Origin: Candidatus Cloacimonadota bacterium
GTDB taxonomy: Bacteria > Cloacimonadota > Cloacimonadia > Cloacimonadales > WRIO01
Direction: 5' to 3'
NCBI GenBank assembly: GCA_029553545.1
Contig: JAKPKU010000208.1
Span: 1-45,990, forward strand
Length of the DNA stretch: 45,990 nucleotides
The translations under genes and the position numbers were made by a program. Positions 3,845 through 43,775 of the stretch are shown piece after piece. Position 1 is the first letter of the stretch. Each line of letters opens with the position of its first letter. Below the pieces are notes generated by a model. That model saw only the letters and a program-made list of their open reading frames with translations, was not told the DNA's origin and did not search any database.

Positions 3845-5562
3845 ACCTTCTCCTTTTTCTCAATTATTTCCGTATTCATCTTGTCTATAGCTTCCTTCAT
3901 TTTGCCAGAGTCTCCGATATTAGTCAGAATGTCAGGGTAATCGACCAACTTTTGATAATTGATAGAGCTAATAAATCTTCTTGTTTTTAAAAGGCTGTGA
4001 GTGCTTACACTCAATTCTTGCACGCCAAACTTTAAGAGTAATCCTATAAAGCTCTCATTTGCAGCCAATTCTCCACATACAGCAATCATTATATTATTAC
4101 TTTTAGCTGCCTCAGCAGTCATCTTAATCAGTTTTAAAAATGCAGGGTGATAGGAATTATAAAGCCCTGCAATAGTTTCATTATTTCTATCAACAGCCAC
4201 AGTATACTGTAGCAAATCATTTGTCCCGATACTAAAGAAGTCTGATTCTTTTGCCAATTGATCGGCTATCAATGCTGCAGAAGGTATTTCGATCATTGTG
4301 CCAATTCTTATCTCTTGTTTATATTGTAATTCAGCTGCGCACTCCAGCACATAATCTTTAGCTTTACGAAATTCTTCGACAGAAGATACCAAAGGAAACA
4401 TAATCTGTAGATTGCCAAATTCAGCAGCACGCAGTATAGCCCTTATTTGTGTTTTAAAGATCTCAGGATATGTTAAAGAAAAGCGGATGCCACGACAGCC
4501 CAAGTACGGATTTATCTCTTGCAAATGTGGATACCACTTTGCCATTTTATCACCGCCAACATCGATAGTACGCACGATGACAGGCTTTTCTTTTGCTTGT
4601 TCTGACACAGCTTTATAAAACTCAAATAGTTCGTTTTCGGTGGGCAAGCTATCTCTGTCCATATAGAGAAATTCTGTTCTAAACAAGCCTATGCCATCAG
4701 CATTGTTTTGATTAACTATTTCCATTTCTTCGGGCATTTCAATATTTGCCATCAATTGTATCACTTTTCCATCAGCTGTGACAGTTGGTAGAGAAGAGAT
4801 ACTCTTTAGATTAGCCATTTCTTCGTTTTCTTTTGCCTTTTGCTCGTGATATTTATTTAAAAGTTTTTCATCAGGATTGACAAATACGATCCCTTGCTCA
4901 GCATCGAGAATCAAGTCATCACCATCTTTAATTTTTTGATTAAATTGTATTCCTGTAACGACAGGCAGGCTCATACCACGTGCCAAAATCACGGCATGCG
5001 ATGTTTTATTACCCTTGACAAGCACTAATCCCTGTACCTTTTTCTTGATAAGCTCCGCAATCATCGAGGGCGGGCAATCTCTCATCAAGACGATACTATC
5101 TTGATTCATTTCATCAATTATCAGGGAGCTTTTATTTTGCAAATGATTAATCAGTCGTTCATAAATATCTTGATAATCGCCAGCTCTTTCTGCATAAAAG
5201 ACATTTTTCATCTCTTTAAAAAAGCTAATTGTCTTATCAAAATAGATTTTTAAAGCATATTCCAAATTATGCAATTCTCTGGCGATCAAATCAAAGACGC
5301 CCTTTTGAATCTCTGGATCTGCGAGTATCATCTTATGTGCTTCAAAAATCTCTCTCTCTTCTTTTGCCTTGATAAACTGATCTAAGTGCTCATCAATATT
5401 CTTACTAATTGCCTCTATTGCAGAGATATATCGCCCTTGTTCTTTTTCTATTTCAGCTTGATCAATATGTCTCTTTTCTATTTCGATAGACTTATCTGAA
5501 ATAATAATTGCTTGACCTATACCGATCCCAGAAGAAACAGCGATACCCACAAGAGTTTGCAT
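3841..5562 (-). CDS. ptsI: PTS enzyme I (PEP-protein phosphotransferase)
   Basis: First kinase of the phosphotransferase relay: it takes phosphate from PEP and passes it to His15 of HPr. The 573-residue length is typical. The phosphorylated histidine is His189 in GNKTSHAVILARG, the same number as in E. coli EI. The C-terminal PEP-binding barrel has IGLFRTEFLYMDRD and the catalytic-cysteine motif CGELAA. The gene starts 2 nt after ptsH. No sugar-specific EII gene lies in the window, so the relay may be regulatory or may serve a permease encoded elsewhere. Confidence 0.95.
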   Translation of the reverse strand: MQTLVGIAVSSGIGIGQAIIISDKSIEIEKRHIDQAEIEKEQGRYISAIEAISKNIDEHLDQFIKAKEEREIFEAHKMILADPEIQKGVFDLIARELHNLEYALKIYFDKTISFFKEMKNVFYAERAGDYQDIYERLINHLQNKSSLIIDEMNQDSIVLMRDCPPSMIAELIKKKVQGLVLVKGNKTSHAVILARGMSLPVVTGIQFNQKIKDGDDLILDAEQGIVFVNPDEKLLNKYHEQKAKENEEMANLKSISSLPTVTADGKVIQLMANIEMPEEMEIVNQNNADGIGLFRTEFLYMDRDSLPTENELFEFYKAVSEQAKEKPVIVRTIDVGGDKMAKWYPHLQEINPYLGCRGIRFSLTYPEIFKTQIRAILRAAEFGNLQIMFPLVSSVEEFRKAKDYVLECAAELQYKQEIRIGTMIEIPSAALIADQLAKESDFFSIGTNDLLQYTVAVDRNNETIAGLYNSYHPAFLKLIKMTAEAAKSNNIMIAVCGELAANESFIGLLLKFGVQELSVSTHSLLKTRRFISSINYQKLVDYPDILTNIGDSGKMKEAIDKMNTEIIEKKEKV

Positions 5563-5564
5563 AC

Positions 5565-5828
5565 TTATTCACCAAACCTTTCTGCAAATAGTTTTTCTAC
5601 TTCTTTCAGTAAATATTCTTCATCTACCCCATCAATAATGAGCTCTATTTCAGACATGCATTCAGCTGCAAGCATCATAACACCCATAATACTTTTGCCA
5701 TTAATGGTCATATCATCTTTTCTAATATAAAAATCTGATCGAAATTGATTTGCCAACTTTACTAATAATGAAGATGGTCGTGCATGTAAGCCGAGAGGGT
5801 TTTGCACAATAATTTTTTTCTTAATCAT
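5565..5828 (-). CDS. ptsH: Phosphocarrier protein HPr
   Basis: Small phosphocarrier of 87 residues. His15 (GLHARPSS, residues 13-20) is the EI phosphorylation site. Ser46 (NGKSIMGVMML) is the regulatory site phosphorylated by HPr kinase. Both are present, which separates it from NPr-like paralogues that often lack the serine signature. It sits between hprK and ptsI, so kinase, target and donor are made together. Confidence 0.95.
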   Translation of the reverse strand: MIKKKIIVQNPLGLHARPSSLLVKLANQFRSDFYIRKDDMTINGKSIMGVMMLAAECMSEIELIIDGVDEEYLLKEVEKLFAERFGE

Positions 5829-5837
5829 AAATCACCT

Positions 5838-6800
5838 TTAATTATTTTGTGTATTAATCGTTCTTTGACGTGTTTTTTGTTGCATTTCTTCTGCAAGTTT
5901 TCTTTGCATTGCCTCTGCGCCATCATAGCCATAAGTCTTCAAGATATGGTTCATTGCGATAACTTCGATTATCACAGAAACGTTTTTACCTGGAGATACT
6001 GGCAAATAAATACATGGTATTTCCATACCCAAGTGCTCTGTATGCTGATTGGTTAGCCCTATTCGCTCATAATCCATGTTCTCACGCCACGGCATCAACT
6101 CAACTTGAATATCCACACGGCTCTCTTTTCTAATTGCTTCAATACCGAACATGCGCTCCACATCGATAATGCCCACGCCCCTTATTTCCATAAAGTGCCC
6201 AATATCTTTAGTCGAAAAGCCAAAGAGTTTGTCATCTTGTTGTTTCAAACGAACCACATCATCAGTGATGAGTCTGTGTTTTCTTTCGATTAATTCAAGT
6301 GCGCATTCACTTTTCCCAATTCCACTACGCCCTGTCAACAATACGCCAACGCCAAAGACTTCGACCAAAGTTCCATGCACAGACTGATCTGGTGAAAAAT
6401 AATCACGTAGAAAGCGGCTTAGTCCCCAATATAATTTTTCAGTTGAAAGTCTACTGACAATGATTGGTATACTTTTTTCATTAGCAATAAAGTCCATTTG
6501 GCTTGGTACAGACAAGCCTTTGGAAACCACAAAGCAGGGAATATTCATGGTCATCATTTCTTCCAGTCTATCATACAAGACGTCTTCTGGCAGAGATTGC
6601 AAATAGCTGATTTCTGTTTCGCCCAATAATTGTATTCTCTGATTCGGGAATCTATCAAAAAAGCCTGACAAAGCCAGTCCTGGCCTATGAATATGTGGCT
6701 CGACTATCTTTTTATCTGTAGATAGTGAGTCGGTAATAATTGACAAGACAAACCGTTGTTTACACAAGTCAAAAAAATCATTAATACTCAATTCTTTCAT
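5838..6800 (-). CDS. hprK: HPr kinase/phosphorylase
   Basis: Adds or removes phosphate on HPr Ser46. The 320-residue protein has an N-terminal DRTGG-like domain and a C-terminal kinase with P-loop GRSGIGKS (157-164). A histidine precedes it at the usual catalytic position (142), and the family signature MEIRGVGIIDV follows. A good ribosome site (GAGGAGG) lies 9 nt before the ATG. In Firmicutes this enzyme drives catabolite repression through CcpA. In Gram-negative bacteria with incomplete PTS it lies near rpoN, as here, and has other regulatory roles. No ccpA-like gene is seen. Confidence 0.95.
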   Translation of the reverse strand: MKELSINDFFDLCKQRFVLSIITDSLSTDKKIVEPHIHRPGLALSGFFDRFPNQRIQLLGETEISYLQSLPEDVLYDRLEEMMTMNIPCFVVSKGLSVPSQMDFIANEKSIPIIVSRLSTEKLYWGLSRFLRDYFSPDQSVHGTLVEVFGVGVLLTGRSGIGKSECALELIERKHRLITDDVVRLKQQDDKLFGFSTKDIGHFMEIRGVGIIDVERMFGIEAIRKESRVDIQVELMPWRENMDYERIGLTNQHTEHLGMEIPCIYLPVSPGKNVSVIIEVIAMNHILKTYGYDGAEAMQRKLAEEMQQKTRQRTINTQNN

Positions 6801-6819
6801 AAACTACCAACCTCCTCAT

Positions 6820-6890
6820 TTTAGAGAAACAGGGCAACTAAAAACAAGCTGCCCTATCATTTAATTAATTAGTAAGCGAGACTTACTGTT
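6820..6890 (-). terminator. Two hairpins between hpf and hprK
   Basis: In the 96-nt gap two hairpins can form on the minus strand: AGTAAG/CTTACT just after the hpf stop, then GGGCAGC/GTTGCCC (7 bp with one GU). Neither is followed by a strong U run, so partial termination or mRNA processing is likelier than a full stop. This is the only real gap in the run from rpoN to metK apart from the lpdA-hpf gap. Confidence 0.4.
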
Positions 6891-6896
6891 GATCTT

Positions 6897-7430
6897 TTAT
6901 GGCTCAATAAGATTATAGTGATCGTTATTCTTTTTCACTAATACGTTGATTTTATCACTTTCCACATTTCTAAAAATGAAATATTCTTCATCAAGTTCTG
7001 CAAACTTATCCATAGCTTCATTGACAGATAGTATTTCTGCAATAATTCTCTTTGTTCTCACTACCTTTTTAGCTTTGGCGTCTTGATTGCTCTCATAAAG
7101 GTTTGCATAAGCAAAATCAGTATCTTTCTTAAGACTGCGTTTTTGATGATCGGTGACTTTGTCTTTGAGCTTTTTCACCTGTGCTTCCATGTTTTCAACT
7201 GCTTCGTCAATTGCAAGATACATGTCCATTTGTGTTGCCTGGCTTTGTAAATTAAATCGTGATGCATGCAAAGACATATCAACAATGTTTCTGCTATTTT
7301 CAAGTGTGAGAGTCATATGAACATTGATGATTTGATCAAAATAGCGAGTTAGTTTTTCACAAGCATCTTCAACATAAGTTCGAATTGCCTTGGTTAATTC
7401 AAAATGGCGAGCTGTAATTGTAATCTGCAT
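6897..7430 (-). CDS. hpf: Ribosome hibernation promoting factor, long form
   Basis: The 177-residue protein has the N-terminal S30AE/YfiA fold (MQITITARHFELT...) and a separate C-terminal domain ending NVLVKKNNDHYNLIEP. That tail is typical of long HPF, which dimerises ribosomes into 100S particles by itself. The start is placed at 7430 because AAAGGGG precedes that ATG; the longer frame from 7463 adds residues unlike the family. Hpf next to rpoN is a very common arrangement. A short perfect hairpin (7452-7471) lies upstream of the ribosome site. Confidence 0.94.
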   Translation of the reverse strand: MQITITARHFELTKAIRTYVEDACEKLTRYFDQIINVHMTLTLENSRNIVDMSLHASRFNLQSQATQMDMYLAIDEAVENMEAQVKKLKDKVTDHQKRSLKKDTDFAYANLYESNQDAKAKKVVRTKRIIAEILSVNEAMDKFAELDEEYFIFRNVESDKINVLVKKNNDHYNLIEP

Positions 7431-7491
7431 ATTGTACCCCTTTCTTTTTAAGGATATCAACAATGATATCCAGTCTTATTAATAATATAAT

Positions 7492-8892
7492 TTAAACTAT
7501 ATGAATTGCAAATTTATGTAAGTCTTCTATAGATTCCATCACACATTCGGATAATGTTGGATGAGCAAAAACTACCTTCTCAATGCTCTCTGCGCTTGAT
7601 TTGGTATTAATAATAAAAGATGCCTGTGCAATTATCTCTGTGGCTGCTGGACCGATAATATGCATGCCAACAATGGTGCCGCTCTCTTTGTCGGCAATAG
7701 TCTTTACAAAACCAAAATTATTGCCCATGCCAAGCGATTTACCATTTGCTGCATATGGAAATTTACCGATCAAGATCTCTCCATATTGCTCTTGTGCCTG
7801 TTTTTCTGTTAAACCACACGAAGCAAGCTCTGGATTAGTAAAAACGCAACGAGGTATATTATGATAAATCAATTCTTCTTGAGCCACCTTTTCTCCATTC
7901 AGCTCACCATTAATCAATTCTGCTACGCGTAAACCTTGTTTACTTGCTGTATGTGCAAGCTGCATTTTCCCTGTAATATCGCCTATAGAGAAGACATTAT
8001 GCTCATTGGTGCGGCATTGTTCATCAATAACAATAAAGCCTCTTTCTCTGCCAACTTCAAAGCCTTCCAGAGTGATATCGCAAACGGGCTGACGTCCTAC
8101 TGCCACCAAGACTTTTTCTGCTTCGGTAGACTTACCATTAGCTAAGCTAAGCATCACTTTTCCATCAGCAATTTCTGCTTTTTCTACGCCTACTCTTAAG
8201 TTGATTTTGATACCGAGTTTTTTCAAGCCCAATGCTAATCTTCTTGAAATTTCTGTATCTTCTGTGGCAATCAGTTCAGGTAAAAACTCAATTATCTCCA
8301 CCTTTGTGCCAAATTGTGCAAATATCGAAGCAAATTCACAGCCGATCACGCCACCACCGATGATAGCGAGACTCTCAGGCATCTGCTCAATATTCAAAAT
8401 ATCATTTGATGATAAGATATGTTTACCGTCAAATGGCATAAAAGGCAATTCTTTGGGTATTGATCCTGTTGCCAAAACTATATAATCGACACTACATTGT
8501 GCCTCATTATCTGCAAAAATAGTGTATTTACCATCGTGTTTAACTATCTTTTCTACCTTTTTATTTATCATAGGTATATTTCTTTTCTTAAAAATATACT
8601 CAATGCCAGACACGAGCTTTTCAACTACTTCTGCCTTGCGTTGATATACTTTTGAAAAATCAAGTTTTGGTGCATCAACTTCGATGCCAAACTCTGCAGA
8701 CTGCTTTATTTCTGCAAATAAATCAGCAGATTTGACTAAGGCTTTTGTGGGTATGCAGCCCCAATTCAAGCACACGCCGCCAAGTCTTTCTTTTTCAAAG
8801 CAAACTGTGCTAATATTATATTGGCTAAGGCGTATAGCTGTTTCATAACCGCCAGGACCGCCTCCAATTACTGCAACTTGATAATGTTCCAT
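7492..8892 (-). CDS. lpdA: Dihydrolipoyl dehydrogenase (E3)
   Basis: FAD-dependent pyridine nucleotide-disulfide oxidoreductase of 466 residues, which reoxidises lipoyl groups of 2-oxoacid dehydrogenase or glycine cleavage complexes. GGGPGG (10-15) binds FAD, and the redox-active disulfide is Cys41/Cys46 in GGVCLNWGCIPTK. A second dinucleotide motif (GGGVIGCE) and the C-terminal HPTLSE histidine motif are present. Its start overlaps the rpoN stop by one base. Its partner complexes are not in the window, although an unlinked gcvT-like gene is. Confidence 0.94.
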   Translation of the reverse strand: MEHYQVAVIGGGPGGYETAIRLSQYNISTVCFEKERLGGVCLNWGCIPTKALVKSADLFAEIKQSAEFGIEVDAPKLDFSKVYQRKAEVVEKLVSGIEYIFKKRNIPMINKKVEKIVKHDGKYTIFADNEAQCSVDYIVLATGSIPKELPFMPFDGKHILSSNDILNIEQMPESLAIIGGGVIGCEFASIFAQFGTKVEIIEFLPELIATEDTEISRRLALGLKKLGIKINLRVGVEKAEIADGKVMLSLANGKSTEAEKVLVAVGRQPVCDITLEGFEVGRERGFIVIDEQCRTNEHNVFSIGDITGKMQLAHTASKQGLRVAELINGELNGEKVAQEELIYHNIPRCVFTNPELASCGLTEKQAQEQYGEILIGKFPYAANGKSLGMGNNFGFVKTIADKESGTIVGMHIIGPAATEIIAQASFIINTKSSAESIEKVVFAHPTLSECVMESIEDLHKFAIHIV

Positions 8893-10331
8893 TATTTTCT
8901 CCTTAAACGACTATTTGGTATTTGAAGTTCCTCACGATACTTCGCAATTACGCGTCGAGAAACGCTTATCCCTCTTTCTTTGAGGATATTTACGATAAAC
9001 TGATCACTCAATGGCGATCTCTTATCTTCTTTTTCTATTAATTCTGAAATCTGTATTTGCACATTTTGTTTCGATACAGCATCATAATTCTTATCTTTAC
9101 CTGCGGCAGAGCAAAAGAAATCTTTCAAACACATGATGCCAAATGGTGTATCGGCGTATTTGAGCTTAACCACACGTGAAATTGTCGATTCATTTACATT
9201 CAAATCGCTGGCAATCACAGAATAAGTTAGGGGTTCAAGTATCCCTGAATTATTGTAAAAGAAGTCTTTTTGATAGTTTATAATCGATCTCATAACGCGC
9301 TCCAGCGTACGGCTTCGCATATAAATAGATTTTATCAAAAACCTGGCAGAGTTGACCTTGGAGCGAATATAATTTAAGGCAACTTTATCGCCTGCCGATT
9401 CAGATAGCATTGTACGGTAATGTCTGCTCAGAGTTATTCTTGGCACATAATTATCATTTATTATAATCTCATATTCACCAGCAATTTTTCTGACAATCAC
9501 ATCTGGCACGATATAGCTTGCTTTTGAGCTATTTAGCCTTATGCCTGGTTTGGGGTCAAGTTGCGAGATCCTCTCTCTATACGACATTACTTCCTTTTCT
9601 GTAATATCATATTTTGTAGCAATATTTTGAAATCGTCGATAAATAAGATCATTAAAATCATGACGGATAATACTAAGCAAAACCAAATCCTGAAGCTCAT
9701 ACGGCTCAAGTTGAGCGATCAGGCATTCAGCCAGAGTTCGTGCTGTGATACCCTTTGGTTTGGTCTGCAAAATCTTTTGATGTATTCGATTAGCGCGTTT
9801 GGGGCTAAGCCCATATTCAGCGCCCTTTTCTTCAATATTATAATCTTCAGGCAAAAACCCATATTCATTTGTGCTTTCGACAAGCTCAAAGGCAAAGTCT
9901 TTTTCTTGCTCGCTAATGGGATATTCATCGATCAAATCAGTAAAGATGCGTTGGAGATTATCATCAGCTTTGATATAGTTTTCCATGTTTGCAGACTCAT
10001 TTTCATAGCTTTTTGAGGAATACTCGCGTTCATCATTGTATTCATTCCAACTATCCAAAATCTCGCTCAATTCTTTTACTTCGTCCAGAGTTTCACTCAT
10101 CTCACCATCCGGGTCTTTAATTTCAGCACCCGTTTCTTCTAAATAGCTATTTTCATCGTCATATTCTTCAGAGAGTTCGAGCAGAGGGTTTTGAACAATT
10201 TCATTTTTCAAAGCCAATTCCAATTCGATCAATGGCAATGCCAGCATCTTCAGAGATTGAATCATCTGAGGTTTTAGAGTAAGCTCTTGGGTTTGTCTTA
10301 GATTGATTGTTTGCGATATTTTTTGATTCAT
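8892..10331 (-). CDS. rpoN: RNA polymerase sigma-54 factor
   Basis: Directs RNA polymerase to -24/-12 promoters that need an AAA+ activator. The 479-residue protein starts with the Gln/Leu-rich region I (QTQELTLKPQMIQSLKML), then an acidic linker rich in Asp/Glu (about 60-120) and the core-binding region. It ends with the RpoN box SRRVIAKYREEL (from about residue 458), which reads the -24 element. It lies 12 nt after lptB, the standard lptB-rpoN-hpf order. A close match to its target promoter precedes the flagellar operon at 27920-27935. Confidence 0.97.
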   Translation of the reverse strand: MNQKISQTINLRQTQELTLKPQMIQSLKMLALPLIELELALKNEIVQNPLLELSEEYDDENSYLEETGAEIKDPDGEMSETLDEVKELSEILDSWNEYNDEREYSSKSYENESANMENYIKADDNLQRIFTDLIDEYPISEQEKDFAFELVESTNEYGFLPEDYNIEEKGAEYGLSPKRANRIHQKILQTKPKGITARTLAECLIAQLEPYELQDLVLLSIIRHDFNDLIYRRFQNIATKYDITEKEVMSYRERISQLDPKPGIRLNSSKASYIVPDVIVRKIAGEYEIIINDNYVPRITLSRHYRTMLSESAGDKVALNYIRSKVNSARFLIKSIYMRSRTLERVMRSIINYQKDFFYNNSGILEPLTYSVIASDLNVNESTISRVVKLKYADTPFGIMCLKDFFCSAAGKDKNYDAVSKQNVQIQISELIEKEDKRSPLSDQFIVNILKERGISVSRRVIAKYREELQIPNSRLRRK

Positions 10332-21723: not shown

Positions 21724-22173
21724 TTAACCCATCGCGACTAAAGCTTCTTCATCGTTTAGCAGGCGGTGCTTGATATTATACTCATTATTATCAATTACCA
21801 ATTGTTTTGCAAGGCGGTTCTTTGTATTAATCAATAGGGGTCCTTTGAGGTTTGCAGTCATCTTGATAGGGTCTTTTGGCACTGTTACGATAACTAAAAT
21901 TAAAGCATCTTCTTCGCTTTGAATATTGATGTCAGCAAGATCTTTACGATATGCATCGATCATATAATCGGGCTTAAAGAGGTTTGGATTGGTTACGACA
22001 AAAGCAAGTGTTGGATCATCGAGCGACTGTAACCATTTTAGCGGTGAATTATCGTCAGTATTAATAAGTGCATAATTTGTTAGCTCTGGGAAACCTAATA
22101 TCCCATTAGCAAAAGTGATGATTGTTTCATCAGAGATTTCAATCTCTCCAAATCTTGTAGTGTAGGCATTCAT
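21724..22173 (-). CDS. fliW: Flagellar assembly factor FliW
   Basis: A 149-residue protein with the family start RFGEIEISDETIITFANGILGFPELTNYALI. FliW binds either flagellin or CsrA; free flagellin releases FliW to inhibit CsrA, tuning flagellin translation. AAGGAG precedes the ATG. It is the last gene of the flagellar operon, 16 nt after flgL, with csrA one gene further upstream, so both halves of the switch are co-transcribed. Confidence 0.95.
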   Translation of the reverse strand: MNAYTTRFGEIEISDETIITFANGILGFPELTNYALINTDDNSPLKWLQSLDDPTLAFVVTNPNLFKPDYMIDAYRKDLADINIQSEEDALILVIVTVPKDPIKMTANLKGPLLINTKNRLAKQLVIDNNEYNIKHRLLNDEEALVAMG

Positions 22174-22189: not shown

Positions 22190-23383
22190 TTATTTTAAAA
22201 TGCTTAAAAGGTTTAATGGGAACACTCTCCCCATAGTGGTGATTGAAGCATTTAAAGCGTTTTCTACCATTGATATTTGACTAAGAACATCGATGATATT
22301 TACTTTTTCAATGCTTTGTACATGATCTAAAACATTGTCGCTAAGCGCTATTAGATTGTTTTGTGTGATTTCTAAACGGTTGAGATTAATACCAGTCTGA
22401 GTAACTTTTGATTGAATCTCTGAATGCATAGTATCCAGTTCTTCAACTGACTGTGCAATTTCATTGAAGTTATGTGACATAAGAGCATTTTTTAGTTTGT
22501 AAATGCTGTCAAAAAAGCCACTATCTTCAAAGATCTCTTTGCCACTGATATTAGTGTCGATTTTACTATTGAAATTCGTATTGAAAGATATCTTGGCACC
22601 ATCTCCTTGATAATTACCTAATGCAACTTGAACCATAAAAGTGTCGCCTTGAACAAAATCATTGTCTGTAAAATCAAGATAAACACCTGAATCGCTGCCA
22701 TCACTGTTTGAGATATTCATTCTTAAGCTGGTAAATGACTGAGCATCAGACCATGTTTGTCCATTATCATCAGAGATTTGGTAAGCTGTAGTATCTGCAT
22801 TTGCCTCATCGCCCACATGCCCGTCTTGCACAAAGCGCACAATATAGGTTTTATTACTGGTGCCAGTATATTCACCTGACGAGGTAACTATACCCTCATA
22901 TGCATTTTCTGCAGCAGCATAAGGTGTGAGGATTCTTGCACTATTGCTATAAGCAGGAGAATTGTTCTTATAACCTGCAAAAATATAGCGATCATTGATT
23001 TTGGTATTGGCAATATTCATAGCTTCTTCCAAGAATTGATCAATCTGCTGAGCGGCAATATCCATCTCGACTGGCGTTGTTGTTTCTTGGGCATTTGATT
23101 GAGCAAATTCACGTACCTTTACAATCAAATCTTGCAATTGCCCAAGAGCATTGTCAGCACCATTTAGGTAGTTTTTAGCCTCCTCAATATTCTCCAAATA
23201 CTGAGTATATGCGCTTTGCTGAGACTTTAAAACTGTGCTTACAGATAGTCCTTTTGCGTCATCAGAGGGATTATTAATTCTCTTTTCTGTTGCAACTTGC
23301 TCGTTAATCTTCTGATAATCAGCCACATTTTTATTGAGAGTGCTGAGCATTGTATTGAACATAGCATTTGTGGTGATACGCAT
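22190..23383 (-). CDS. flgL: Flagellar hook-associated protein 3 (hook-filament junction)
   Basis: Junction protein between hook and filament. At 397 residues it has the flagellin-like N-terminal coiled coil (MRITTNAMFNTMLSTLNKNV...QVATEKRINNPSDDAKG) and the matching C-terminal helix (VSQISMVENALNASITTMGRV). The middle contains a variable domain with YIFAGYKNNSPAY. AAGGAG precedes the start. It lies between csrA and fliW rather than directly after flgK. Confidence 0.94.
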   Translation of the reverse strand: MRITTNAMFNTMLSTLNKNVADYQKINEQVATEKRINNPSDDAKGLSVSTVLKSQQSAYTQYLENIEEAKNYLNGADNALGQLQDLIVKVREFAQSNAQETTTPVEMDIAAQQIDQFLEEAMNIANTKINDRYIFAGYKNNSPAYSNSARILTPYAAAENAYEGIVTSSGEYTGTSNKTYIVRFVQDGHVGDEANADTTAYQISDDNGQTWSDAQSFTSLRMNISNSDGSDSGVYLDFTDNDFVQGDTFMVQVALGNYQGDGAKISFNTNFNSKIDTNISGKEIFEDSGFFDSIYKLKNALMSHNFNEIAQSVEELDTMHSEIQSKVTQTGINLNRLEITQNNLIALSDNVLDHVQSIEKVNIIDVLSQISMVENALNASITTMGRVFPLNLLSILK

Positions 23384-23399: not shown

Positions 23400-23648
23400 T
23401 TATAATTGTTTAATTTTCCCAGAAAGTATCTTATTAAGGTCTTCTAAGCTGTTTGTCTTTTGCGCTAATTGAGCTGCAGCTTGATTCTCTTTTAAGATTC
23501 TTTCATACACTTCTTTACGATAGATTGTTGTGTTTTTGGGTGCCAAAACGCCTATTCTGGCAGAGCCTTTGTTAATGTCTGTGATGACTATTTCTATGTC
23601 ATCTCCGATTCGAATCGATTCGCCTTGTTTACGTGTTAATACTAACAT
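23400..23648 (-). CDS. csrA: Carbon storage regulator CsrA
   Basis: RNA-binding dimer of 82 residues that recognises GGA in hairpin loops near ribosome sites. MLVLTRKQGESIRIGDDI and SARIGVLAPKNTTIYRKEVYERI are the signature strands, with the RNA-contacting Arg in YRKEVYERI. The C-terminal 25 residues (Gln/Ala-rich then Lys) are an ordinary extension. It is placed between flgK and flgL, an insertion that interrupts the usual flgK-flgL pair. The known partner FliW is two genes downstream. Confidence 0.96.
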   Translation of the reverse strand: MLVLTRKQGESIRIGDDIEIVITDINKGSARIGVLAPKNTTIYRKEVYERILKENQAAAQLAQKTNSLEDLNKILSGKIKQL

Positions 23649-23703: not shown

Positions 23704-25080
23704 TTACACTAACCCTAAAACTACTTTTATCATATCATCTGCCATGCTAATTATCTTTGCAGCAGCTTGATACATTTGTTGATATTTTATTAAATCGGCT
23801 GTCTCTTCATTTAAAGACACACCTTTAATTGAATCTCTAAACTTATCTATTTGTTCAGTAACCATTGCCTGGTTCTCTTTTTTAATATTCGTATTATTTA
23901 CATCACTACCAATTGAATAAACGAAATTGGCATAGGCTTGTGAGACACTCATTTGACCATCGACAATAGGCTCATTTCTAAGATTAGCTATGGCAAGGGC
24001 AATCTCATTATCTCCAGAAGCGCCTGAGCGTGAGGTTGCTAATTTATTTGAATCATTTAGAATGGTATTGCTCACTCTAAAATCTTTTGCTCCATTAGAA
24101 GAGGTTTCAAAGAAGTAATGACCTTGCTCGCTATTGGCTGTTAAATCATGACCTTGTAAATGTATTTCATTTACTTTTTCTTTGATTGTGTCAGCTATTT
24201 TATCAAGCTGATTTAAATAGCCTGGAACTACATTATCACGTAAGTCAATTAAACTTAATAGTTCCCCGCTATTTAAACCGTTAATTTTGTCGAGATTCTT
24301 TTTCCAAACAAGATTATGCACGGTAACCCCATTGTTAGTGCTTTCTTCAAAGCCTATCTGATTGCATGATTTACCATCAACAATCTGATCACTACCGAGA
24401 TAAACGATCTTTTGTCCATAATCATTTACTTTGACAGACACATTACCATATGTAGCTAATTCGTCCATTAATAAGTCAAACTTGTCAAGCAAGTCATTTG
24501 GCTCATATATTTGCCCAATTGTAAAATTAATACCTTCTGATAGATCTGCAAGCTCTTGGGCGATTTGATTGATTCTTGTTACACTATTGATTAGTTCGTC
24601 ATCGATTGAGCTGATATAACCAGATAAATCACTATGAAGCCTGTTAAATTCATCTGTCATCTGCTCAGCATTGTTTATCACGTCCATTCTGTATGCCTGG
24701 CTTGTTGGATTACTCGATAAAGAGTCCCATGAACTAAAAAACTTATCGATTTTATTGCTCAAACCAAAGTCTGATGGTTCGTTTAACACTGTTTCTAACT
24801 TTTCAAGAACTTCTGATCTCTTGTCCCAAAAACCAAATAAAGACTGATTATTTCTGAAATTAATATCTAAAAATTCATCTCTCACTCGCTCAACACTTTG
24901 GATATAAACACCTGTACCTATCGTGCCATATGGATATTCGATTGGCAGCCCGCTTTCTTGGACTACCTTTTGGCGTGAGTAACCAGGAGTATTAACATTT
25001 GAGATATTATGAGAAGTTGTCTCAATATGCTTTTCTGTGACTTGTAGTGCCCTCTTACCTAATGAGATTAGTTGAAACAT
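23704..25080 (-). CDS. flgK: Flagellar hook-associated protein 1
   Basis: First hook-filament junction protein, 458 residues. The N-terminus has the rod/hook signature (HIETTSHNISNVNTPGYSRQKVV), and the C-terminus has the axial helix NEETADLIKYQQMYQAAAKIISMADDMI. Its middle domain lacks the large inserts of some relatives. AGAGGT lies upstream of the ATG, which is 3 nt after the preceding small gene. Confidence 0.95.
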   Translation of the reverse strand: MFQLISLGKRALQVTEKHIETTSHNISNVNTPGYSRQKVVQESGLPIEYPYGTIGTGVYIQSVERVRDEFLDINFRNNQSLFGFWDKRSEVLEKLETVLNEPSDFGLSNKIDKFFSSWDSLSSNPTSQAYRMDVINNAEQMTDEFNRLHSDLSGYISSIDDELINSVTRINQIAQELADLSEGINFTIGQIYEPNDLLDKFDLLMDELATYGNVSVKVNDYGQKIVYLGSDQIVDGKSCNQIGFEESTNNGVTVHNLVWKKNLDKINGLNSGELLSLIDLRDNVVPGYLNQLDKIADTIKEKVNEIHLQGHDLTANSEQGHYFFETSSNGAKDFRVSNTILNDSNKLATSRSGASGDNEIALAIANLRNEPIVDGQMSVSQAYANFVYSIGSDVNNTNIKKENQAMVTEQIDKFRDSIKGVSLNEETADLIKYQQMYQAAAKIISMADDMIKVVLGLV

Positions 25081-25083
25081 AGC

Positions 25084-25335
25084 TTACCTCTTTACGTATA
25101 CATTGTTAAATAGCTCTGGCGTGTTTGCTAAACCTTTGATAAATATTCTTTGTATATTTAAATCCCCTTGCTTGCAATCAGCTTGATCATGTTTGCATAG
25201 TCGATTAATCTGGTGCTCAATTGGGTCCTTGTATGGGAAAATCATTGTGGGTATTACGTTTTGAGCAACCATTACTGTACTCGAATTTTCTTTGATCAAA
25301 ATCACATTTTTCTTTTGCAAGAGAAGGTTTAACAT
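25084..25335 (-). CDS. Unknown 83-residue protein in flagellar operon
   Basis: I do not recognise this protein. It has 83 residues, a hydrophobic start (MLNLLLQKKNVILI), two cysteines in LCKHDQADCKQGD and a basic end. Support for a real gene comes from packing (2-nt gap after the flgN-like gene, 3 nt before flgK) and a ribosome site AGGTG 5 nt before the ATG. The position next to flgN is where FlgM often lies, but the sequence lacks the FlgM C-terminal anti-sigma motif, and no fliA is seen. Confidence 0.65.
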   Translation of the reverse strand: MLNLLLQKKNVILIKENSSTVMVAQNVIPTMIFPYKDPIEHQINRLCKHDQADCKQGDLNIQRIFIKGLANTPELFNNVYVKR

Positions 25336-25337
25336 GA

Positions 25338-25838
25338 TTACACCTGCTTATTTAATAAAATTGAATTGTGTTTTGCTGGAATCATGCCGACACGGCTATA
25401 AACTCTGTCTTTGTCGATCATATCTGCAATCATTTCAAGATTGTCACCAACGAGAGTTAAACCAGTCTTGATAAGCTCTTTATTGGCTTCAGATATTTTG
25501 TTGATTCTTTGCAAAGTGTTTGAAAAGGTTTTGAAGAAAAGCATTGCTTGCTCCTTGTGCACGTCTTCCTCTAATACTTCAAATAGGTTCTTCAAGCTAT
25601 TTTGGTCAACAGTCATGTCTTTTAGGGCAAGTATGTTTTCCATCAAATCTTGTCGGACAACGGTATGTTTGTGCGCTCTGCTAATTAATAGAGCAATTTG
25701 TTGACTGATTTTCTGGAACTTTTTTATATTCCATTCGATCAGTGAAATCTTTTGATCTTCGAGGCATAGTGATACTTCTTGGTATGCTGCAATTTCTTCT
25801 TCCCATGCTCGAAAGAAATCTTTTAAGAGGGCTTCCAT
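25338..25838 (-). CDS. flgN: FlgN-like flagellar chaperone
   Basis: A 166-residue, almost entirely helical protein that fits FlgN, the export chaperone for FlgK and FlgL. It has heptad-like spacing, a first helix with EEEIAAYQEVSLCLEDQK, and a position between flgJ and flgK. FlgN proteins are poorly conserved, so the call relies largely on context and helical character. AAGGAG precedes the ATG. Confidence 0.7.
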   Translation of the reverse strand: MEALLKDFFRAWEEEIAAYQEVSLCLEDQKISLIEWNIKKFQKISQQIALLISRAHKHTVVRQDLMENILALKDMTVDQNSLKNLFEVLEEDVHKEQAMLFFKTFSNTLQRINKISEANKELIKTGLTLVGDNLEMIADMIDKDRVYSRVGMIPAKHNSILLNKQV

Positions 25839-25855
25839 AATAATCTCCTTCTACT

Positions 25856-26686
25856 TTATAAAGTGTTTTTAAAACGCATTACATTGCGAATATAATTCTT
25901 TGTCTCTTTAAACGGTGGTACACCATTATACCGTGTAACATTGCCAGGACCTGCATTATATGCTGCCAAAGCAAGCTCATTAGATTTGAATTTATTGAGT
26001 TGTTGCTTCAAATATTTTGCACCAGCCATAATGTTTTCTTCTGGGTTAAATGGATCTTTAACGCCCAGATCATTTGCTGTGCCGTCCATCAATTGCATCA
26101 AACCTTTTGCACCTACAGGTGATACAGCTTTATGATTACCATAACTTTCTTGTGCTATAACTGCCTTGATAAGGCTCTTGTCAATGTCATATTTATCTGC
26201 TGCTTTATTAATAATAGGCTCATATCGATCAAGTCTTGCCATCAATGTTTTTGGTAGGGCTGCATTATCTTGGGCTTGCTGAGATTGAACTGGTTCAGAA
26301 ATGCGTTTTTCAATCTTTCTTTGTAATAGTTCAAGTGAATTGTTTTTAGGCATTTTACTATAGTCATTTTTCAACTGTCTCACAATCATGTCTGACAAGC
26401 CTAAGGACTGGTTTTTTGACATCATATCACTGATGCTATCGATATACATGTCTTGATAAAAGTCTGAGCCTGCTTCTGAACCAAAAAACCCACCTGAATC
26501 AAGAGACTTAGTCATTTCTGAAAACATCATTTTTACCATAATCTTTTCAAATTCAACTGCTGCTTCTTTGATCTTTGTGTCACTATCTAAGCTTGCATCT
26601 TGAAGATTAGTAGCTTTCTCTAAGTTTTGTTTTGCAACCTGTTGAGAATAGGTGTTTTTGAATTCTTGAATACTCATATTTGACAT
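25856..26686 (-). CDS. flgJ: FlgJ rod-binding domain fused to lytic transglycosylase
   Basis: The 276-residue protein has two parts. Residues about 38-105 are the FlgJ rod-cap domain (FEKIMVKMMFSEMTKSL...GFFGSEAGSDFYQDMYID). Residues about 155-276 are an SLT/GH23 transglycosylase with catalytic Glu180 in VIAQESYGNHKAVS, then GAKGLMQLM and AAYNAGPGNVTRY. Enterobacterial FlgJ instead carries a GH73 glucosaminidase. The fusion would localise peptidoglycan cleavage to the growing rod. No signal peptide is seen, consistent with flagellar type III export. Confidence 0.93.
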   Translation of the reverse strand: MSNMSIQEFKNTYSQQVAKQNLEKATNLQDASLDSDTKIKEAAVEFEKIMVKMMFSEMTKSLDSGGFFGSEAGSDFYQDMYIDSISDMMSKNQSLGLSDMIVRQLKNDYSKMPKNNSLELLQRKIEKRISEPVQSQQAQDNAALPKTLMARLDRYEPIINKAADKYDIDKSLIKAVIAQESYGNHKAVSPVGAKGLMQLMDGTANDLGVKDPFNPEENIMAGAKYLKQQLNKFKSNELALAAYNAGPGNVTRYNGVPPFKETKNYIRNVMRFKNTL

Positions 26687-26695
26687 GACATTCTC

Positions 26696-27775
26696 CTACA
26701 TTATCTTCAGCTCTGCCTGTAAAGCGCCAGCCTGTTTGATCGATTGAAAAATTGATATTAAATCACGTGGCGAAACCTTAATTGCATTTAAAGCACGAGC
26801 CAAATCTTCTACTGTTGCTGTTTCCATTGTAATCACACGGGCATCTTCTGTAGCAGTGATATTTGAGCTTTCACTCTCTGTGCTATAAGGACCAACTTGA
26901 GCACGGTTTGTCTTTGTCTCAACTTGAATTACCAAATTGCCATGAGCAATAGCAATCTCATTTATTCTCACATTTCCACCTGCTACGATTGTACCTGTTC
27001 TCTCATTGATGACCACAATGGCGCTTTGCTCAGGAACGACCCTTAGATTTTCTACTGTAGAGATAAAATTAATCAAATTATTACGTACCAAAACTGAGTC
27101 TGGAACGCTGATAGAAATAGTCCTGGCATCATAAGCATTAGCTATTCTACCACGATAAATGCTATTGATATTGGTCACAATTTTCTGTGCTGTAGTAAAA
27201 TCTGCCTGATTTAATACGAGGTTTAATTCACCATTGATGAGCATTTTATTCTCTACTTCCAGCTCTAAAACGGCGCCATTAGGTATACGCCCCACATTTG
27301 TATAATTCTTTCTCATCTTTGTATTTCGAATCTCTTCATTAAAGCCACCAAAAGAGACAGGACCTTGCGCTAAAGCATATTTTTTATTGTCTTGTCCGAT
27401 AAGCGGAGACATGAGTAAAACACCGCCTTCAAGGCTCTTAGCATCACCGATAGACGACACATTGACATCAAAGCGCGAGCCAGCTTTCATAAAAGGAGGC
27501 ATCGTTGCAGTAATCATCACAGCCGCTACATTATTTGGTCTGATTCTATTGATAGGCACAGTTATACCAAAGTGCTCAAGCATGTTCATAATAGACTGAA
27601 TAGTCATTTGTGAGCTCGTGCCATCGCCAGTACCTTGTAGGCCGACAACAAGTCCATAACCTATTAATTCTTTTGATTCAATTCCAGAAAAAGAGGAAAT
27701 ATCTTTTAGTCGGCTTTGTGCTGATAAGCTAAGCGCTATCAAGATTAAAGCTGTGAGTAAAGTTAATTTCTTCAT
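26696..27775 (-). CDS. flgI: Flagellar P-ring protein
   Basis: Periplasmic P-ring subunit of 359 residues. It has a cleavable signal peptide (MKKLTLLTALILIALSLSAQ), then RLKDISSFSGIESKELIGYGLVVGLQGTGD, a highly conserved FlgI start, and the end LARALNAIKVSPRDLISIFQ. The start at 27775 follows GGAGA by 6-7 nt; an ATG four codons earlier overlaps that site. It is the first gene after the sigma-54 promoter. flgH (L ring) is absent from the window. Confidence 0.95.
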   Translation of the reverse strand: MKKLTLLTALILIALSLSAQSRLKDISSFSGIESKELIGYGLVVGLQGTGDGTSSQMTIQSIMNMLEHFGITVPINRIRPNNVAAVMITATMPPFMKAGSRFDVNVSSIGDAKSLEGGVLLMSPLIGQDNKKYALAQGPVSFGGFNEEIRNTKMRKNYTNVGRIPNGAVLELEVENKMLINGELNLVLNQADFTTAQKIVTNINSIYRGRIANAYDARTISISVPDSVLVRNNLINFISTVENLRVVPEQSAIVVINERTGTIVAGGNVRINEIAIAHGNLVIQVETKTNRAQVGPYSTESESSNITATEDARVITMETATVEDLARALNAIKVSPRDLISIFQSIKQAGALQAELKIM

Positions 27776-27818
27776 TTTTGTCTCCATTTATTATCTTTTC
27801 TTTTTTTTTAAAGGAAAA

Positions 27819-27835
27819 GGGGAAAACGTTTCCCC
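27819..27835 (-). promoter_or_regulatory. Hairpin in flgI leader
   Basis: GGGGAAAACGTTTCCCC forms a 7-bp stem with a 3-nt loop about 45 nt before the flgI start. On the minus strand it is followed by a U-rich stretch, so it could act as an attenuator, a stabiliser or a DNA operator (it is nearly palindromic). Confidence 0.5.
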
Positions 27836-27919
27836 TAAATACCGAACCGAATGGGCGTCCCCAGTTTTGAGAGGTGCTAAGTTGTTTTGTTTGTCACTCT
27901 ATCATTGCGCTATTAAATT

Positions 27920-27935
27920 GCAATGGCTGTGCCAA
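27920..27935 (-). promoter_or_regulatory. Sigma-54 (-24/-12) promoter of flagellar operon
   Basis: Minus strand reads TTGGCACAGCCATTGCA, against the consensus TTGGCACG-N4-TTGCW. Both the GG and GC dinucleotides are present at the exact spacing. It lies about 145 nt upstream of flgI and points at it. The rpoN gene is in the same window. Confidence 0.85.
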
Positions 27936-28418: not shown

Positions 28419-30797
28419 CTAATAACCAATTATTATTTTATCTCTCTTTTTCAAGAGATTGCGTCCATTCTTCCCTGCCTCAAGGTAGATTGGATAGACA
28501 CCTGGCAGTAGGCTTTTCCCACTCTTATTCTTTCCATCCCAAATAATAGTGTAATACCCATCATTGTAAATGCCACAAGTAATCTCTCTAATCTTATTGC
28601 CATTTATATCAAAGATAATCGCCTTGAAAGTCACATCGCTTTCTGTGCTGTAAAGCGATATATTACACTGCTCTGAGCGATATGGAGAAAATCGCTGTGG
28701 AGAAATAATCACTTTTTTTTCTGAGTCTGGATTAGAAATATACAGTGAATTCTGTGCACCAATTGTGTGTGAGTTTCTGCTCGGACCCCAATTTTGCTCT
28801 GTTGCAATGGCATTTGAAAACTTTCTTTCAATCGACACGCCTTTTTCTTTACTCCAACTCGGTTGATAAGTGAATTGCTCTATAATATTGCCATAATTGT
28901 CTGTGAAAGTGAGTTGCTCTCCCTGATTAGAGAGATTTGGCAAACCATAAAAAATGGGCACGCTCTCGAGGTCATAAGTGTTTTTTAACCAGATTGTATC
29001 ATTGCGTGTAGGTGCAATAATTATGTACTCAGAAGCGATCGCTGGGAATCTGACAAAGCTATTCGAATCATAGAGGTAGAGACTATCTATCTCTGCAAAA
29101 TAGTCATTTGTTTTGATCTCAATCCACTCAGGTTCACCACTTTTTGGATTGTACATGATCTCATTAATAACCCAAGGTAGTTTATCGCTCAACCATGCAT
29201 TTTGTTGTGTTATTAAAAGCTCATTACCATTGTGTTCATAGCTCAAACAATAGTCATAAAAAGTATAGGCGTTGGAGTTCCAGCCAGTGTTTATATCAAT
29301 AGATAGCTCATCAATTACATAAAAAACATCTTCATAAATCAACTGAATTGCATCATGGTTTTGTGTCTCATAGAGTTCAATCTTGATCTCACATGGTTGG
29401 GCATTATTTATTAAGTGTAATGTATGAATCAAAGAGTCATTATTTTGAGATATTAGGACTTTTTCAAAGATTATATCGCCACCACTTTGCTGATTAGCAT
29501 TTGCTTCTCCAGGGCTCGCTCCATAAGGTGAAATGCTTTTTATCCAGACAATTTCATCATTTACAATATGCCTTTCAAGAGAAACACCTTTGGGAGTAGA
29601 GTTTGCTGAATATGACATAGAATCAACCTTAACATCGCCATATAAATACAGCGTTATGCCATCGCCATTATTATTAAGCGTTGCCCAAGAGGTTGTTTGA
29701 ATCACTTTATCTTCTACTAAATGGGGATAATTAAGTAATAAAGAGGCTTTGTCTGGGCATAAAACTATATATTCACTTGCGCCTATCTCCCCAATACACT
29801 TTGTCTTTGAGCCAGACAAATCAATAATCACTGCATCATCCAAAACAACCGTGCTATCAGACTTATTATATAGTTCAATCCACTCAGGGTTACCAGTATT
29901 TGGAGAATGCATCACCTCATTAATCAAAATTGGAGACTCTCCTATTAAGAAATTACCAACAAAAGTATTGTTTTCTAAGTATGAATCATTGTGACAATGA
30001 GCAATGATTTTCAGATTGTGAATGCCTGTGGATAAGTTGTCGAAATTTGTGAATAAAATGCATTCATTATTTTCGTCGAATAAGTTAACAGGTTGTAAGT
30101 CACTGATATTATAGTCAATTATATACTCTATACAAATTGCTGATGCTGGCACATCAATTGTGGATAAGTTGTGTATAACAGTGCTTAAATACACACAATT
30201 TGCAACTGTATTTATCGAAACAGAAGCTATTTCAATATCGACAAAATCGGTGTTTGAAAAACCAGGAGTAGTAATATCTGATATATGCCAATCATCGATG
30301 GAATTGCTGTCATAGCCATCTATTCTCCTGGCAACAGACTTGCCTGTTTCGATTGAGGGAAACATTTCAATAGCAGGGTCATTCTCATCATCAGCTAAAT
30401 CATTGCTATTGGGTGAGTCATAAACAAAAGTGTCTGTATAAGATTCATCCTGACTGATTAATCTTATTGCATCGCTTGCAGAGCCCCCATTTTGGAAGCT
30501 GAGGTTTGCGTAGAAATCTGCATTGGGTATGTTTTTTTCAGCAATTAAAAGAAAAGTAAATGGTGCTAAGATAAACTCAGGAAACACAAAGTTATTGGTA
30601 AATCTTGTACCTGCAGACTGGATTTTCCAGCCATGAAGGCTTACGGGGTCGAGAGAATTGTTATACAACTCTATCCATTCATTACCCTCATCAGCACCTA
30701 CGGGGTCGATCATTATTTCATTGATAACCACTTCAGCAAAAATAGAATTAAGATACAATAATAATACTAATCCGACAAGTAAGGCTATTTTACGCAT
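28419..30797 (-). CDS. Lamin-tail-domain surface protein
   Basis: Secreted 792-residue protein with a signal peptide (about 1-21). It has at least three lamin-tail domains, beginning near residue 22 (VVINEIMIDPVGADEGNEWIE), residue 290 (ILINEVMHSPNTGNPEWIE) and residue 545 (WVINEIMYNPKSGEPEWIE). A CARDB-like segment lies after the first domain. The C-terminal 90 residues look like a FlgD-type Ig fold (FDINGNKIREI...WDGKNKSGKSLLPGVYPIYLEAG), common as a cell-surface anchoring or sorting module in FCB-group bacteria. The role is unknown. It follows a lipoprotein gene by 24 nt. Confidence 0.85.
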   Translation of the reverse strand: MRKIALLVGLVLLLYLNSIFAEVVINEIMIDPVGADEGNEWIELYNNSLDPVSLHGWKIQSAGTRFTNNFVFPEFILAPFTFLLIAEKNIPNADFYANLSFQNGGSASDAIRLISQDESYTDTFVYDSPNSNDLADDENDPAIEMFPSIETGKSVARRIDGYDSNSIDDWHISDITTPGFSNTDFVDIEIASVSINTVANCVYLSTVIHNLSTIDVPASAICIEYIIDYNISDLQPVNLFDENNECILFTNFDNLSTGIHNLKIIAHCHNDSYLENNTFVGNFLIGESPILINEVMHSPNTGNPEWIELYNKSDSTVVLDDAVIIDLSGSKTKCIGEIGASEYIVLCPDKASLLLNYPHLVEDKVIQTTSWATLNNNGDGITLYLYGDVKVDSMSYSANSTPKGVSLERHIVNDEIVWIKSISPYGASPGEANANQQSGGDIIFEKVLISQNNDSLIHTLHLINNAQPCEIKIELYETQNHDAIQLIYEDVFYVIDELSIDINTGWNSNAYTFYDYCLSYEHNGNELLITQQNAWLSDKLPWVINEIMYNPKSGEPEWIEIKTNDYFAEIDSLYLYDSNSFVRFPAIASEYIIIAPTRNDTIWLKNTYDLESVPIFYGLPNLSNQGEQLTFTDNYGNIIEQFTYQPSWSKEKGVSIERKFSNAIATEQNWGPSRNSHTIGAQNSLYISNPDSEKKVIISPQRFSPYRSEQCNISLYSTESDVTFKAIIFDINGNKIREITCGIYNDGYYTIIWDGKNKSGKSLLPGVYPIYLEAGKNGRNLLKKRDKIIIGY

Positions 30798-42618: not shown

Positions 42619-42961
42619 TGGTGGAGGTGGCGGGAATTGAACCCGCGTCCAAAAATATGTCAACTACCAAATCTACGTGTGTAGTTGTTTTTGAGTCTTG
42701 GCAATCCTTTTAAAACAATCAAAAATGGGGACCACCCAGCCTGTGAATTTCCCTTTCACCTACAGACTTTGGTAAAAAGTAGCAACAATGAATGACAATC
42801 TTTTCAGAGCACGTTGCCATCTCATCAAGACCGTAGCTGACTTAAGCAGCTAATGCGAAATTATCGTTTGCATTTATGCGTTCCAACCAGTTTAACGGGT
42901 AGGTTAGCTCCCCGACACGCATCAATAATCCACTCTATCCCTGTCGAATCCATTCACCCCC
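42619..42961 (-). ncRNA. ssrA: Transfer-messenger RNA
   Basis: Rescues stalled ribosomes. The 343-nt one-piece tmRNA starts GGGGGTGAATGGATTCGACA and ends with the T arm GCGGGTTCAATTCCCGC and an encoded CCA. The 5' GGGGGTG pairs with CACCTCC at the 3' end (one GU), giving the alanine-type acceptor stem. The tag frame is 42842-42871: resume codon GCA, peptide ANDNFALAA, stop TAA. The ends are set by the acceptor stem. Confidence 0.97.
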
Positions 42962-43699: not shown

Positions 43700-43775
43700 G
43701 GCGAGATAGCTCAGTCGGTAGAGCAGAGGCCTGAAAAGCCTTGTGTCCCCAGTTCAAGTCTGGGTCACGCCACCA
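43700..43775 (+). tRNA. tRNA-Phe (GAA)
   Basis: 76 nt with encoded CCA. The anticodon loop CTGAAAA gives GAA. D stem GCTC/GAGC, anticodon stem GAGGC/GCCTT and T stem CCCAG/CTGGG all pair. The acceptor stem GGCGAGA/TCACGCC has one A-A mismatch at 5-68. TTGACA at 43648-43653 is a possible -35, but no clear -10 is spaced from it. Confidence 0.96.

Follow-up and report, generated by a model that had tools for sequence, protein, structure and literature searches.

The leader of the flgI operon and an RNA element behind the last flagellin gene of an array make up a new RNA element pair in Candidatus Cloacimonadota, well supported as complementary and co-changing. From these sequences we consider it probable that the flagellin 3′ untranslated region (3′UTR) is a riboregulator of the flgI–csrA–fliW operon, FliX-like in its logic, and they suggest that the filament message would talk back to an earlier flagellar operon in these uncultured bacteria. 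The pair is a candidate for a connection by which the last flagellar tier would act post-transcriptionally on the middle one in an uncultured phylum.

The flgI operon and its sigma-54 promoter

The window, meaning the whole stretch of 45,990 nucleotides that was analysed, is contig C191 of a genome (G000) of 2.88 Mb in 268 contigs. The genes under discussion and their promoter are the following:

8892..10331, minus strand: rpoN (sigma-54), by Pfam, with three sigma-54 domains
21724..22173, minus strand: fliW, by Pfam
22190..23383, minus strand: flgL-like gene, by its Flagellin_N domain and position
23400..23648, minus strand: csrA, by Pfam
23704..25080, minus strand: flgK, by Pfam
25084..25335, minus strand: 83-aa open reading frame (ORF) between flgN and flgK, without a Pfam match
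25338..25838, minus strand: flgN, by Pfam
25856..26686, minus strand: flgJ (rod-binding and SLT domains), by Pfam
26696..27775, minus strand: flgI, P-ring protein (Pfam FlgI, 2e-118), with a probable start at MKKLT
27919..27935, minus strand: sigma-54 promoter with −24/−12 elements TTGGCAC-N5-TTGCA, read from the sequence and kept before flgI in relatives

Pfam confirms the names that the first-pass annotation had given to flgI, flgJ, flgN, flgK, csrA and fliW, and the rpoN gene that it had placed in the same window is present. For flgL, the domain and the position agree with the name given and are the two supports for it. The FlgI of a Candidatus Cloacimonadota metagenome-assembled genome (MAG) is 89% identical to that of the window. 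An alternative flgI ATG at 27787 overlaps the Shine–Dalgarno sequence. ORFs resembling PTS enzyme I, HPr, an HPr kinase and a ribosome hibernation factor, named from reading their translations, adjoin rpoN (3841–7463, 8892–10331). Upstream of flgI, positions 28419–30797 encode a 792-aa protein with lamin-tail domains and a FlgD-like Ig domain, which is perhaps secreted. The window also holds a tmRNA at 42619–42961 and a tRNA gene at 43700–43772.

The near-consensus sigma-54 site with invariant GG and GC, first reported at 27920–27935, is real in sequence and was correctly located, and is in fact one base longer. Read directly, the minus strand from 27935 to 27919 is TTGGCACAGCCATTGCA, with the GG and GC of the −24/−12 elements correctly spaced. 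Such a site is improbable by chance: the exact pattern TTGGCACN5TTGCW occurs in the window only here, and one of 100 dinucleotide shuffles contained it (mean 0.01). The flgI site is likewise the sole match without mismatches to TGGCAC-N5-TTGCW. When two mismatches are allowed, the window has 33 matches against 23.1 expected, as many as were reached by 3 of 100 shuffles, so that weak sigma-54 matches carry little meaning. The flgI site ends 144 bases upstream of the probable ATG start (27775), and the transcript would start near 27908, about 12 bases past the −12 GC.

The promoter is kept in relatives. All ten flgI leaders with upstream DNA (our own and nine from eight relatives) have a sigma-54 site, nine of them, our own included, matching all ten fixed bases; the site in genome G013 deviates at two of these and could be due to chance. 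An ordinary, real sigma-54 promoter that is conserved in relatives is well supported by these comparisons.

Nine exact sigma-54 sites were found in the genome, and four of the nine lie directly before flagellar operons. The scan for further flagellar sites, named as a check when the promoter was first reported, thus turned up three more operons of this kind. The exact sites are:

C191: before the flgI operon
C250: before two rod genes, flgB/flgC-like by Pfam
C146: before a flgF-like gene, with flgA two genes further
C7: before fliJ, with flgD further along
C90: before a TPR/glycosyltransferase gene
C28: beside a PrpR-like activator
C46 (one) and C83 (two): within coding sequence

The remaining gene names in the flagellar operons with such sites come from reading translations only, and a small ORF behind flgC in the C250 operon has no Pfam match. 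At up to one mismatch the genome has 149 sites against 15 for the reversed pattern, a control that holds CG dinucleotides and may therefore give a low count. Contig C83 (L004, L005) carries ABC-permease-like and secreted-protein-like ORFs, named from translations, that look foreign, and it may be contamination of the MAG.

Control by an activator of the FlrC/FleQ type had also been proposed. The genome encodes nine full sigma-54 activators, in addition to one weak partial match, and six of the nine carry a receiver domain, as in NtrC/FlrC. No FleQ-type domain was listed among the nine at E 1e-5, and the first-pass interpretation as a whole is supported in part. Among the flagellar contigs that were fetched, a local search tied only one activator, of the TPR type, to flagellar genes; it lies near fliJ in our own genome.

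A conserved segment in the flgI leader

The first-pass annotation overlooked a conserved element in the leader behind this promoter. Its parts are as follows:

27776..27918, minus strand: flgI leader, about 130 nt, from the sequence
27867..27881, minus strand: segment A, CTTAGCACCTCTCAA, complementary to TTGAGAGGTGCTAGG of the flagellin 3′UTR element
27841..27857, minus strand: segment B, CGCCCATTCGGTTCGGT, complementary to ACCGAACCGGATGGGCG of the flagellin 3′UTR element with one G-U
27818..27836, minus strand: terminator-like hairpin, AGGGGAAACGTTTTCCCCT then TTTCCTTT, 4 nt past segment B

Comparison of the leader among relatives shows one unchanging block, CCCATYYGGTTCGGT, which here falls inside 27857–27841, while the rest varies. 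Segment B lies 59–160 bases past the promoter in the leaders in which it was located. A scan found a terminator-like hairpin after B in five of ten leaders and none in the other five (two of G002 and those of G003, G006 and G010). The G010 leader has a 4-bp stem and a T run, below the scan threshold, and in G006 it is the start codon, 16 nt past the end of segment B, that follows in place of a hairpin. The flgI leader of G003 is 47 nt long and without B; this genome is 64% complete. Two flgI genes occur in G002 (C52/L043 and C69/L050), each with an exact sigma-54 site and a B-like motif. The G007 leader (L046) contains two direct copies of TTTGTTTATTACGAAAGATAT, the second of which is the segment matched to the flagellin 3′UTR.

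The motif CCYATYYGGTTYGG was searched for in 15 genomes. Exactly two copies occur in each of six (G000, G001, G006, G007, G010 and G013), one in the flgI leader and the other on the opposite strand just behind flagellin, so that ACCGAACCRRATGGG, which is complementary to the leader, is part of the flagellin message. G121 has a single copy, inside a protease-like ORF, and the motif is absent from the other eight genomes, namely G002, G003, G015 and G118, which have flgI, and four without flgI. A search of plasmid DNA with the flgI leader gave no match, and Rfam at relaxed thresholds returned only sub-threshold matches for the leader and 13 loci.

A structured element in the flagellin 3′UTR

The partner of the leader is an element of about 117 nt behind the last flagellin gene of an array, conserved in seven genomes of six genera in an alignment of the flagellin strand. 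In our own genome it is located outside the window:

C146 of G000, 26489..26370: flagellin 3′UTR element

A covariance model built from the seven copies found one match each in 8 of 124 Cloacimonadota genomes. The eighth, G005, was outside the training set, and its element again lies behind flagellin. The two hairpins of the element are 97.8% paired, with a covariation of 0.352 that was reached by none of 500 shuffles and by none of the slid controls, the structure having been derived from the same seven sequences that were scored. G-U combinations fill 20 cells of the hairpins and A-C one, which identifies the flagellin strand as the folding RNA strand. An intrinsic terminator follows 55–119 nt past the seed motif in six of the eight genomes; none was found behind the element in G006 and G010. 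Judged from sequence, the element would lie within the flagellin transcript.

A match to flgI was found in 11 of the 124 genomes, and seven of the 11 have the element. G015 has both the leader and the flagellin part in altered form. In G005 the element is present and no match to flgI was found. G002 has no element, one of its flagellin contigs ending about 150 bases past the gene and the second being without the element within 800 bases. G118 and G121 come from a different family within the class, and their flgI is 41% identical. A search for the G005 leader and the G002 and G003 partners listed 37 places; of the seven loci read among them, one was the known G015 leader and the other six had no sigma-54 site and looked unrelated.

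No Rfam family, riboswitches included, scored above its gathering score on the leader or on the element as searched in six genomes (those other than G015 and G005). The sole overlap with the element was PrrF in G013 (L061), with an E value of 0.16 and 31.2 bits where the gathering score is 90. A small protein gene in the flagellin 3′UTR was considered and rejected, as the frame is not kept and differs or breaks in six of the eight genomes. The same ORF start and ribosome site occur only in G000 and G001; confined to this genus, the ORF has 33 codons in L072 (G000) and 32 in L073 (G001) and overlaps the element in the latter's 5′ half.

Complementarity and joint change of the two RNAs

Pairing was computed as ungapped helices between each leader and its own flagellin 3′UTR, RNAduplex on whole leaders being too unspecific with RNAs of such length. 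Helix B is present in all seven genomes that have both parts, six of which had been chosen through the motif and one, G015, had not. It scores 41.5–46, and 200 leader shuffles per genome gave maxima of 31.5–40.5, each under the helix B score of the same genome. In its 13-nt core, 85 of 91 cells are Watson–Crick, six are G-U and none is mismatched, a count that the degenerate motif pattern favours; all six G-U cells have U in the leader and G in flagellin. At one pair position G015 carries C-G and the other six U-A, and the change is seen in both RNAs as well as in the arm of the flagellin hairpin: its flagellin RNA reads ACCAGACGG against CTGTCTGG in the leader, and the other six read GATGG against an A in the leader at this place.

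Outside B, the best helix tends to fit the cognate RNA. The best cognate helix there scores 35.5 in G000, 32 in G001, 44 in G006 (19 pairs with G-U), 47 in G007 and 54 in G015 (22 perfect pairs). It is weak in G013 (27.5), and that of G010 is not cognate-best (23.5 against 32.0 with the RNA of G007). G001 is nearly identical to G000 and was dropped for a permutation test over six genera, in which the cognate assignment of these helices ranks first of 720 (sum 231.5, next 222.0, mean 151.6) and a same-strand control 235th. Adding G001 back gives the cognate assignment a shared first place (rank 2 of 5040), since G000 and G001 are interchangeable. Segments A and B stand in the same 5′–3′ order in both RNAs. 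The two helices therefore do not stem from one inverted copy, and both in one complex would need a kissing or looped geometry. Complementarity and co-change of leader and element are thus the well-supported part of the analysis.

Could segment B instead be bound as DNA by the flagellar activator, as an enhancer? Some FlrC, FleQ and FlbD sites sit downstream of the promoter, and the distance of B from the promoter would suit such a site. We consider this quite unlikely, since the exact pattern occurs only twice in our own genome and is hence absent from the flgB, flgF and fliJ sigma-54 promoters, all 18 flagellin spacers lack a sigma-54 site at up to two mismatches, and a protein site would not predict a cognate second helix.

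Related motifs in flagellin 5′ leaders

Sense-strand sequence related to the reverse complement of the element stands in the spacers upstream of some flagellin genes; 7 of 25 flagellin 5′ leaders align with that reverse complement at more than five points over the best of 20 shuffles. The element may also pair with these leaders, for which the evidence is weaker than for flgI. The spacers would also fit a motif, GGTTYGGT...CAGCAGATTT, that is shared with the flgI leader and recognised in the same orientation by an RNA-binding protein, and in the predicted fold of several leaders (e.g. G000_L106_8316 and G001_L117_5783) the motif pairs next to the Shine–Dalgarno sequence. Against such a protein, which we consider an improbable account, it is the flagellin strand that folds in the copy behind flagellin, whereas the shared motif lies on the other strand, and a cognate second helix is obtained in antisense alone. 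Sense copies in the spacers and an inverted copy behind an array of tandem paralogues could, furthermore, recall DNA recombination sites, with inverted copies around flagellin genes serving inversion or exchange. This we regard as very improbable, as the copies of a single genome agree only partly with one another, and the flgI leader and the co-change would be left unexplained. Antisense pairing between flagellin RNA and flgI leader remains the reading that we prefer.

In 12 of the 25 flagellin leaders, a count made without a shuffle control, AAGGA stands in the loop of a small hairpin, an arrangement that we take to resemble CsrA sites. Hairpins such as TTACAAGGATGTAA and GGCAAGGAAGCC are seen, together with AAGGAGG ribosome sites, in G000 (C170, L106:7097–7110) and in other flagellin leaders. 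By analogy the AAGGA hairpins look like CsrA sites, and we liken their loops to the GGA motifs described in the available part of a study of Campylobacter jejuni (PMC4894983).

A proposed mechanism

We infer an encounter of the two RNAs inside the cell, with flagellin as the regulator, flgI as the target and repression by early termination. The sigma-54 promoter would start a flgI–flgJ–flgN–flgK–csrA–flgL–fliW transcript, and its leader would be the target of the structured RNA in the 3′UTR of the last flagellin. The flagellin RNA would present the seed CUAACCGAACC beside a hairpin, and the seed would meet GGUUCGG in segment B. Seed pairing could then invade the flagellin hairpin, and a second helix would form with segment A. 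An abundant flagellin message would in this way turn down the earlier operon, including csrA and fliW. As B is followed so closely by the terminator-like hairpin, or in G006 by the start codon, pairing would most likely lower the expression of the operon.

Folding of partial transcripts with B blocked freed the 5′ arm of the hairpin in five of six genomes, which would make termination easier. The drop caused by blocking B was matched by 7 of 100 shuffles and is weakly above chance, and direct pairing of B with the 5′ arm was not above shuffles (48 of 150). At equilibrium the terminator forms at 0.92–0.99 in the six leaders folded, with B blocked or free. Given the weak shuffle controls, repression by early termination is a choice among options rather than a result; an antiterminator model was likewise rejected as a result on these controls and kept as a suggestion.

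The same parts could also work in reverse, the sigma-54 leader being ended early at its terminator and acting as a small RNA on the 3′UTR of flagellin mRNA. Complementarity itself is directionless, half of the leaders have the terminator-like hairpin and G010 a short stem with a T run, and the leader hairpins form with a probability of at least 0.92 in the six that were folded. We nevertheless think this direction unlikely. Conservation extends along the entire flagellin element, which has covarying hairpins of its own, whereas the leader is conserved mainly in A, B and the hairpin, so that the element looks like the regulator and the leader like the target; moreover, the scan found no terminator in the other half of the leaders.

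With flagellin RNA as the regulator, the timing of its synthesis is of interest. FliA is present, and a loose sigma-28 pattern occurs in 3 of 18 flagellin spacers (e.g. TAAAGTTATTGCAAAGATAACCGATA in G001) and not in the others, which makes late transcription of flagellin plausible. Hfq, on which RIL-seq rests, gave no match in our own genome, which is rated 100% complete. We more tentatively propose that flagellin mRNA may have two functions, its 3′ tail being a conserved antisense hub of flagellated Cloacimonadota whose seed helix would be universal and whose second helix would evolve fast and be species-specific. The partners of the hub would be the sigma-54 flgI leader and the flagellin 5′ leaders, and the late filament mRNA would report to the middle operon, with csrA and fliW, apparently free of Hfq.

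Comparison with known systems

No description of this element was found in the literature searched, nor any work there joining 'Cloacimonadota' and 'small RNA'. The available text on Cloacimonadota in PMC13082233 has a single passage on flagellar gene enrichment, and that of PMC8542988 mentions flagella or motility only for Omnitrophota. RpoN promoters precede basal-body and hook genes in Proteobacteria, according to the accessible part of a review (PMC3930126), and the promoters found here resemble those hierarchies, in Cloacimonadota. The pair of segments is named and can be swapped, which makes for a sharp prediction. The flgI leader of G005, in particular, would contain CC[CT]ACCTGGTTCGG and the reverse complement of ATCTCTCGTTGATAA.

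In attenuation of the pT181 type, antisense RNA pairs with a leader next to a terminator. The present case would differ in that the antisense is encoded in trans, and attenuation is only proposed here. In C. jejuni, the sRNAs CJnc230 (FlmE) and CJnc170 (FlmR) are tied to the RpoN and FliA tiers, as the sections available describe (PMC11187230). They resemble the element as sRNAs connected with tiers of the flagellar hierarchy, and differ in their host genes and in their targets, flgM and Cj1387c. Also in C. jejuni, the flaA mRNA titrates CsrA and thereby influences further flagellar mRNAs, and the flgI leader there binds CsrA, to judge from the available part of that study (PMC4894983). The likeness is that of a flagellin mRNA acting on flagellar mRNAs, with csrA and fliW in the operon here; in contrast, flaA titrates CsrA via its 5′ leader, with no base pairing from a 3′UTR.

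The closest likeness in logic is FliX, an sRNA from the fliC 3′UTR of Escherichia coli that base-pairs with other mRNAs; in the portions of the work at hand, its pairing is inside coding sequences (fliC and the S10 operon), and its over-expression leads to fewer flagella and to lower flgB and fliL promoter activity (PMC10578931). Both are RNAs from a flagellin 3′UTR that pair with other mRNAs, as predicted here, and the two were set beside each other by description. The partner here differs from those of FliX (PMC10578931, as far as the text at hand goes) in being a 5′ leader behind a sigma-54 promoter, paired through two predicted helices, in a genome in which Hfq was not found. This suggests that flagellin-tail RNAs may exist as regulators far from enterobacteria. 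By analogy, the predicted regulator shares its logic with known flagellar RNA regulators and differs from them in partner, place and phylum.
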